41,600 nt of DNA, from assembly GCA_025363605.1 (NCBI GenBank), contig JANYDO010000238.1, positions 1-41,600 of the forward strand, written 5' to 3'. This document shows positions 1,008-1,956 of this stretch, piece after piece. Within the stretch, counting starts at the first letter, position 1. The number at the start of each line of letters is the position of its first letter. Both the position numbers and the translations under genes were made by a program. The notes beneath the pieces are model-generated. The model was not told the origin of the DNA, did no database searches, and saw nothing but the letters and a program-made list of their open reading frames with translations. This stretch comes from Candidatus Kapaibacterium sp. (GTDB taxonomy: Bacteria > Bacteroidota > Ignavibacteria > Kapaibacteriales > UBA4661).

Positions 1008-1023
1008 TAGAACATTTGTTCTA
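1008..1023. promoter_or_regulatory. Operator copy 1, palindrome TAGAACATTTGTTCTA
   Basis: This is a perfect 16-bp palindrome with 7-bp arms and a 2-bp centre. It covers the -33 element (TTTG, 1015-1018) of the promoter for the 1096 gene. Its core, GAAC-N4-GTTC, has the form of the Gram-positive LexA (DinR) box, but TetR-, MarR- and HxlR-type regulators also bind such palindromes, so the regulator cannot be named. Confidence 0.7.
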
Positions 1024-1046
1024 ATTCAAAAAATTCGCTAGATTTG
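1015..1046 (+). promoter_or_regulatory. Bacteroidota-type promoter for the oxidoreductase gene at 1096
   Basis: TTTG (1015-1018), 20 bp, then TAGATTTG (1039-1046) is a full match to TTTG-N19-21-TAnnTTTG. The predicted start of transcription is near 1053, inside operator copy 2. A protein bound at either operator would therefore block polymerase. Confidence 0.65.
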
Positions 1047-1051
1047 AGTAA

Positions 1052-1067
1052 TAGAACATTTGTTCTA
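1052..1067. promoter_or_regulatory. Operator copy 2, palindrome TAGAACATTTGTTCTA
   Basis: This copy is identical to 1008-1023, and the identity runs 3 bp further (ATT after each). The copies are 44 bp apart, about four helical turns, so bound dimers would sit on the same face of the DNA. It lies at the predicted transcription start and about 30 bp before the start codon. Confidence 0.7.
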
Positions 1068-1095
1068 ATTTTTCCATCACCAAAAAACTACAACC

Positions 1096-1956
1096 ATGAA
1101 CAAGCAGAACATACTCATAGCAGGAGCGGGCGGAGCAGTCGGCAAGCATCTTGTGGAGCATCTTTCGGGCGAACACTCCTTGTCCTTGCTGACGCGCTCG
1201 CGGACAACGTTTTCTTCAGATTCACAAGCCAGTTCAAACCGCATCGTCGAAGCCAATGTGCTTAATACCTCCACACTGCGAGGTGCGTGCGAGGGTGTGC
1301 ATACGGTCATTTCCACGGTCGGAGCATCCTTAGACTTGAGAGCGATGAGCGATAAACGCTCGTTTATGGAGGTGGACTTGCAAGGAAATCTGAACCTTTT
1401 GGAAGAAGCCAAGCGCTCAGGAGTGCAGCGCTTTGTGTATTTATCAGCCTTCGGTGCTGAGTCCATGCCGACTGCCTACACCAACGCGCACGAAGCATTT
1501 GTGCGGCATCTGAAGGCATCAGGCTTGGAATATGGCATTGTGCGCCCGACGGGGTTTTTCTATGTAAATCTGGAATTTCTGGGGATGGCGAAAAGCGGTA
1601 TTGCCTCAGTCATCGGCAATGGGAAAGCGCGGACGAATCCCATTCACGAAGCAGACGTTGCCAAAGCCTGCGCGGAAGCGGCTCTGAAGCAGGGCAATCT
1701 GGAAATGAATATCGGTGGACCGGAGACATTCACACGGCAGGAAATTGCGGAACTCGCCTTTGCTGCGCTTGGTAAAAAACCACGCGTGATGAACATTCCT
1801 GCGTTCATACCCACCCTGATGAAGCCGCTCGTTTCGCCGTTCAACCGCCGAATCGGTGATTTGGTCGAGTTCTTGGCGTATGTTGCCACGCATGAGTGTG
1901 TCGCGCCCGTATATGGCGAGAAGCGGCTTGGAGACTACTTTCGGGTGCATTGTTAA
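1096..1956 (+). CDS. SDR-superfamily NAD(P)-binding oxidoreductase (NmrA / atypical SDR type)
   Basis: The 286-residue protein starts with a Rossmann beta-strand and the glycine motif GAGGAVGKH at residues 10-18, typical of NAD(P) binding. Segments resembling atypical SDR/NmrA-like proteins follow: TVISTVGASLD, a helix with VQRFVYLSAFGAES, and YGIVRPTGFF. The C-terminal half has a substrate-side pattern (GNGKARTNPIHEADVAKACAEA, then NIGGPETFTRQEIAELAF). A catalytic YxxxK is not obvious, which is usual for this subgroup. It is probably a cytoplasmic reductase or an NADPH-sensing protein; the substrate is unknown. It is a single gene with its own promoter flanked by two identical operators, so it is probably tightly repressed. 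No regulator gene is adjacent in the window. Confidence 0.85.
   Translation: MNKQNILIAGAGGAVGKHLVEHLSGEHSLSLLTRSRTTFSSDSQASSNRIVEANVLNTSTLRGACEGVHTVISTVGASLDLRAMSDKRSFMEVDLQGNLNLLEEAKRSGVQRFVYLSAFGAESMPTAYTNAHEAFVRHLKASGLEYGIVRPTGFFYVNLEFLGMAKSGIASVIGNGKARTNPIHEADVAKACAEAALKQGNLEMNIGGPETFTRQEIAELAFAALGKKPRVMNIPAFIPTLMKPLVSPFNRRIGDLVEFLAYVATHECVAPVYGEKRLGDYFRVHC

Follow-up and report, generated by a model that had tools for sequence, protein, structure and literature searches.

Paired 16-bp palindromes at an oxidoreductase promoter of a Kapaibacterium are candidate operators of a TetR-family repressor

Introduction

Excerpts of the report on KstR (Rv3574), a mycobacterial TetR-family repressor of lipid and cholesterol functions, describe a binding site, TAGAAC-N2-GTTCTA, that overlaps the repressor's own promoter (PMC1995591). 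As far as those excerpts go, the locus described here shares the half-site, TAGAAC...GTTCTA, and the placement of the operator over core promoter elements. A TetR-family dimer and autoregulation, both of which are predicted here, would be further likenesses. In contrast, the half-sites are 2 bp apart in KstR (14 bp in all) and 4 bp apart here (16 bp), and KstR controls 74-83 genes, whereas here one promoter and, in some species, tetR itself would be controlled. Membership of the KstR regulon was considered and rejected, as the 14-bp TAGAAC-N2-GTTCTA site is not present, the spacer being 4 rather than 2. The identical half-site therefore supports TAGAAC as a half-site of the TetR family and not membership of the KstR regulon. 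In a literature search that covered subscription journals thinly, no such operator was described for PF13972 proteins, and KstR alone was relevant.

Three further features are relevant to this locus. Sigma-A promoters of Bacteroidota have TTTG as their -33 element, the Gram-positive LexA box has the core GAAC-N4-GTTC, and classical short-chain dehydrogenases/reductases (SDRs) carry a YxxxK motif. In the portion of the Flavobacterium work available, the -7 box, TAnnTTTG, occupies positions -12 to -5 (PMC9723704). Likewise, the available part of a study of the SOS response gives CTAA-N5-TTAG and GGA-N5-TCC as Bacteroidetes motifs (PMC8565304).

Results

Two identical palindromes at one promoter

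The window, which is the whole 41.6 kb stretch of DNA that was analysed, has the following features at the locus.

1008 to 1023, forward strand: candidate operator 1, TAGAACATTTGTTCTA, with 7-bp palindromic arms and a central TT, overlapping the -33 element
1015 to 1018, forward strand: candidate -33 element, TTTG, inside operator 1
1039 to 1046, forward strand: candidate -7 box, TAGATTTG, of the Bacteroidota sigma-A type TAnnTTTG, 20 bp after TTTG
1051, forward strand: predicted transcription start, placed from the -12 to -5 position of the box in the available part of PMC9723704
1052 to 1067, forward strand: candidate operator 2, the same TAGAACATTTGTTCTA, covering the first transcribed bases as predicted
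1096 to 1956, forward strand: 286-aa atypical SDR or NmrA-like NAD(P)-binding oxidoreductase (PF13460, E 4.7e-24; PF01370, E 4.6e-18)

The original prediction of two identical palindromic copies before an NAD(P)-binding oxidoreductase gene was confirmed, as both copies are exact and the product matches PF13460. The copies were said to be 44 bp apart, which is right as the start-to-start distance; the gap between them is 28 bp. A search for TAGAACATTTGTTCTA that tolerated up to 3 mismatches found two places only in the window, giving 4 strand hits compared to 0.39 expected, and none of 100 shuffles of the window reached 4 strand hits. These two sites are also the only ones in the window with TAGnnn-N4-nnnCTA and at least 5/6 complementary pairs. 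The inverted repeat is of a length that suits a TetR dimer, and the sites overlap a promoter.

When the scan was extended to the 5.3 Mb genome, AGAACANNTGTTCT occurred in these two places only, and the reversed control pattern occurred in none. A genome-wide regulon was considered and rejected. One-mismatch matches were found in 2-6 places per genome, similar to the reversed control pattern (4-11), and at 3 mismatches the control pattern had more matches (265) than the real one (190). Beyond the oxidoreductase promoter and, in the sister genome G006, a tetR gene, no one-mismatch match stands out. Three of the four other one-mismatch matches in the window's own genome (contigs C49, C164 and C495) are in or beside unrelated genes; the fourth is on C291.

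The oxidoreductase also matches PF01073 (E 4.3e-13) and PF05368 (E 2.3e-12). All eight aligned orthologues have Y-x3-H-E (Y128, H132 and E133) at the position of the classical YxxxK. Since this replaces YxxxK, the protein is an atypical SDR and its activity cannot be assumed. Nearby, at 2033-2655 in the window, small DUF6883 and DUF4926 family genes lie side by side.

Promoter geometry

The -33 element had been placed within the first copy, where TTTG is indeed found. The transcription start had been placed inside the second copy, which is right to within 1-2 bp, as the predicted +1 at about 1051 is one base before it. A scan for sigma-70-type promoters found none at the site, which is expected for a promoter of the Bacteroidota type. 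The seven orthologous promoters resemble Bacteroidota sigma-A promoters in having TTTG, a spacing of 19-21 bp and a TAnnTTTG-like box; they differ in that the -33 element sits within an operator and in that two species, G004 and G005, have TATATTGC as the box. The full TAnnTTTG is present in 3/7, TAnnTTTA in 2/7 and TATATTGC in 2/7. The TATATTGC box of the G005 (L052) and G004 (L053) promoters fits the TAnnTTGY box (SM5), which is described for Flavobacterium psychrophilum in the part of PMC9723704 available. From this box, it is possible that the oxidoreductase gene may switch sigma factor between species.

Conservation of the pair

Oxidoreductase orthologues were found in six of the seven other genomes of the genus, with 53-80% identity. 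It had been proposed that a lack of conservation of the upstream copies would count against a regulatory role. Instead, both sites precede the gene in all seven genus genomes that have it, the window's included. The eighth, G002, has neither the oxidoreductase gene nor the site pair nor TetR1, the regulator described below. Across the order, the pair pattern matches 6 of 123 genomes, every time at this promoter; the G007 pair escapes the pattern because one of its copies has a single differing base. Operator 1 has the same sequence in 7/7 promoters, down to the non-palindromic centre from which the -33 element takes its TTTG. In operator 2 the centre differs among them (ATTT, AAAT or AAAC), which would be expected if the arms alone mattered there. 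Outside the genus, the loci of oxidoreductase homologues (L114-L125) gave no TetR1 match, and no copy of the site was found upstream of these genes.

A TetR gene linked to the sites

In G004, G005 and G007, a divergent TetR-family gene (TetR1; PF00440 and PF13972) shares the intergenic region with the oxidoreductase gene, and these linked regulators exceed the cut-offs of both Pfam models. The original prediction had named a TetR gene with the same site as one outcome that would identify a regulator other than LexA, and relatives do have one. The tetR gene of G006 is on another contig and its product is about 61% identical to that of G007. There, TAGAACAAACGTTCTA ends 15 bp before the probable ATG of the unlinked tetR. 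At zero mismatches, the site has only three places in G006, two at the oxidoreductase gene and one at tetR. Of the evidence that ties the site to the protein, this unlinked gene with its site is the strongest single item.

In the AlphaFold model of TetR1, confidence is high for the DNA-binding domain alone (pLDDT about 85-89 for residues 11-60; mean 63.4). The nearest solved structures by sequence, 3rh2 and 3nnr, are titled only TetR-like or TetR-family regulators.

In the window's genome (G000), no related regulator gene is on the contig that carries the pair, in line with what had been noted; the TetR search matched only other contigs. The best match was a paralogue with different sites. In the assemblies of G000, G002 and G003 (86% complete), the search did not find TetR1. 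G001 has a TetR1 gene (C74) with no such site within about 1.5 kb. The G000 equivalent of the G006 tetR position falls where contigs stop: C103 starts 2.6 kb past it, and on the opposite side C332 comes to its end, in a match that may be paralogous. At the G000 equivalent of the G001 tetR place, on contig C487, there was no TetR match. Presence of TetR1 in this species is probable, and the repressor of the window's genome is probably an orthologue of the tetR of its sister species, without a copy in the fragmented assembly.

The paralogue, TetR2 (G000:C540 and G006:C27), is 41% identical to TetR1. Between TetR2 and an FAD monooxygenase-like gene are three tandem repeats of the TAGGACAAA...CTA type, about 21-22 bp apart.

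L068, 1758 to 1841 (G000:C540): TAGGACAAA...CTA tandem repeats
L072, 1344 to 1453 (G006:C27): TAGGACAAA...CTA tandem repeats

The TetR/FAD-monooxygenase neighbourhood was also seen in L156 and L172. FAD monooxygenases, named by eye from their N-terminal sequence, adjoin the same TetR branch in G000 and G006 (TetR2), G388 and G578. These neighbours fit a role of the branch in inducing oxidoreductases directed at small organic compounds.

A shared frame among related TetRs

The same frame was sought at more distant TetR genes in two draws. For the first, 395 genomes of the phylum were searched with a TetR1 alignment and 13 genomes matched. Far relatives with own sites in the same frame were L153 (TAGAACAAATGTACTA and TAGATCATTTGTTCTA), L157 (TAGAACAATTGTTCTA), L155 (TAGTACAAAAGTACTA) and L156 (TAGGTCAAATGTACTA).

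The second draw consisted of 395 genomes of the neighbouring class (that of G355) and included all 81 TetR matches with E of at most 1e-20, from 52 genomes. A 250-bp window was taken for each TetR gene, with 230 bp upstream and 20 bp inside it. A perfect TAGnnn-N4-nnnCTA palindrome was found in 22/81 of these, and one with at least 5/6 pairs in 35/81. The 63 other half-site trinucleotides gave a mean of 0.27 (maximum 2) for perfect palindromes and 1.51 (maximum 13, for TTT) at 5/6 pairs or better. Shuffles, which kept base composition alone, gave means of 0.14 and 0.94, respectively. When the TetRs were clustered at 50% identity, a perfect site was present in 16/62 clusters, compared to a mean of 0.27 and a maximum of 2 for other half-sites. 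Inside the 250-bp windows there were 23 perfect sites in 20,250 bases, and outside there were 7 in 164,536. Six of these 7 are palindromes of the TAGAAAA type, a long way downstream from where the gene starts. TetR loci that match TetR1 weakly had a 5-of-6 site in one case of 13. All seven TetRs scanned from the wider set have PF13972. The remaining 46 of the 81 related TetRs have no TAGnnn-N4-nnnCTA site at 5/6 pairs.

Four TetRs of the search alignment had been selected once the first draw was complete; of these, L153, L155 and L157 were known to have sites and L154 was without one. L153, L157 and L154 recur among the 81 as L166, L167 and L168, and leaving these out gives 21/78 perfect sites and 33/78 at 5/6 pairs. 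Among the second-draw sites, L167 has TAGAACAATTGTTCTA, and L166 and L172 have TAGAACAAATGTACTA. L180 carries the exact TAGAACATTTGTTCTA, starting 29 bp before the match start. Upstream of related TetRs in G205 and G410 (L158, L159 and L211), TAGGCATTTATACCTA and TAGGCTAAAAAGCCTA are 45-46 bp apart; this two-site spacing is close to that in the window and the inner bases differ.

A frame can be proposed for these sites in which the outer TAG/CTA would stay unchanged, with AA, TA, TC, GG, GT, CT or GC at positions 4-5. The AA version would be accompanied by a His in the second helix of the HTH (T-x-R-H-I-A). The AAC version was present in 8/10 TetRs with the helix-2 His and a site, compared to 1/43 without the His (Fisher p 4e-7, with descent ignored). 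For this count, the four TetR1 orthologues were entered separately and sites down to 4/6 pairs were accepted; it leaves out L173, L190, L218, L225, site-less rows and the G001 TetR1, which is site-less. On balance, the data slightly favour a common 16-bp frame, TAG-nn-C-N4-G-nn-CTA, for PF13972 TetRs of Bacteroidota and their Kapaibacterium relatives, in which positions 4-5 would set the repressor and His would go with AA.

Discussion

A tetR gene adjoins the sites or itself carries one in relatives, and 22 of 81 related TetR genes have the palindrome. The 16-mers are therefore read as TetR operators. They are very likely the operators of a PF13972-type TetR repressor that would act by double occlusion and be released by a ligand, after which the enzyme would be made. 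Operator 1 lies over the -33 element and operator 2 abuts the predicted start, suggesting double-occlusion repression. In the absence of inducer, TetR1 dimers would sit on both operators, the one at operator 1 masking the -33 element and the one at operator 2 the start site. With both sites filled, RNA polymerase could not bind, nor could it leave. Release of the repressor by a small ligand would then allow the oxidoreductase to be made. This ligand is probably a substrate of the oxidoreductase, which is the usual case, or a toxic relative of a substrate.

Other explanations for the pair were weighed. The original prediction raised an SOS link, in which the sites would be LexA boxes and the oxidoreductase DNA-damage inducible. 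The core of the site, GAAC-ATTT-GTTC, does fit the Gram-positive LexA core, and both a LexA_DNA_bind domain (PF01726) and RecA are present in 8/8 genus genomes. However, GAAC-N4-GTTC was found at none of 16 loci (8 lexA and 8 recA, with about 1.5 kb on each side where the contig allowed), so the SOS link was not upheld. Moreover, the core 14-mer is at one promoter only in the genome, five recA loci carry an ACTTGT-type direct repeat instead, and the TAGAACATTTGTTCTA-type site travels with tetR genes. Beyond the shared GAAC-N4-GTTC core, the sites differ from the Gram-positive LexA/DinR box in their constant outer TAG/CTA, their link to tetR and the absence of a copy at lexA or recA. LexA control is very unlikely, and by sequence the pair is almost certainly where a TetR-type repressor docks and not a switch that responds to DNA damage. 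A loop, in which two dimers would touch across the DNA, had been proposed from the spacing of 44 bp, which is about four helical turns in this species. The start-to-start distances in the seven species are 41, 43, 43, 44, 46, 47 and 47 bp, a range of more than half a helical turn. This breaks the helical phase, so a tightly phased loop is not supported. A 28-bp gap is also too short for an ordinary loop. Operator 2 is kept 3-7 bp from the end of the -7 box across the seven promoters, which favours occlusion of two promoter parts over a loop, and looped repression is extremely unlikely.

Palindromes are common in AT-rich intergenic DNA, and the pair could in principle be a chance or non-regulatory inverted repeat, such as a terminator or a mobile-element end. 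The probability of this is negligible, as the sites are kept even at orthologues with as little as about 53% protein identity, the exact pair is unique in the order, and a search for a T-run terminator at the site found none. It is also conceivable, if rather doubtful, that the sites are TetR-type operators bound by another TetR paralogue, such as TetR2 on C540, or by a horizontally replaced repressor. The assembly does contain TetR2, whose recognition stretch, ISHGNLCYHFPRKE, is shared with the TetR1 orthologues. On the other hand, TetR2 is preceded by its own, different repeats (TAGGACAAA...CTA), which are conserved in G006, a genome that also has TetR1.

The direct repeat at recA is an observation in its own right. 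The recA loci L135, L136, L137, L140 and L141 share ACTTGTCGGAAAC...ACTT(G/A)T, and L134 has a variant seen by eye. The published Bacteroidetes SOS motifs, as given in the part of PMC8565304 available, differ from this repeat and from GAAC-N4-GTTC. The repeat is a candidate LexA box of Kapaibacterium-like bacteria.

With TetR1 or its orthologue as the preferred regulator, the locus itself would be an ordinary TetR-controlled oxidoreductase, in a lineage that, among the loci named, is known only from metagenome assemblies. This reading removes the false SOS annotation that the GAAC-N4-GTTC core invites. A shared frame for a poorly studied branch of TetRs would give a testable rule, with regulator-target links that may be read from the genomes of uncultured bacteria. 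If the frame is true, the operators of hundreds of uncharacterised repressors would be predictable from sequence, and the pair in the window would be one instance.
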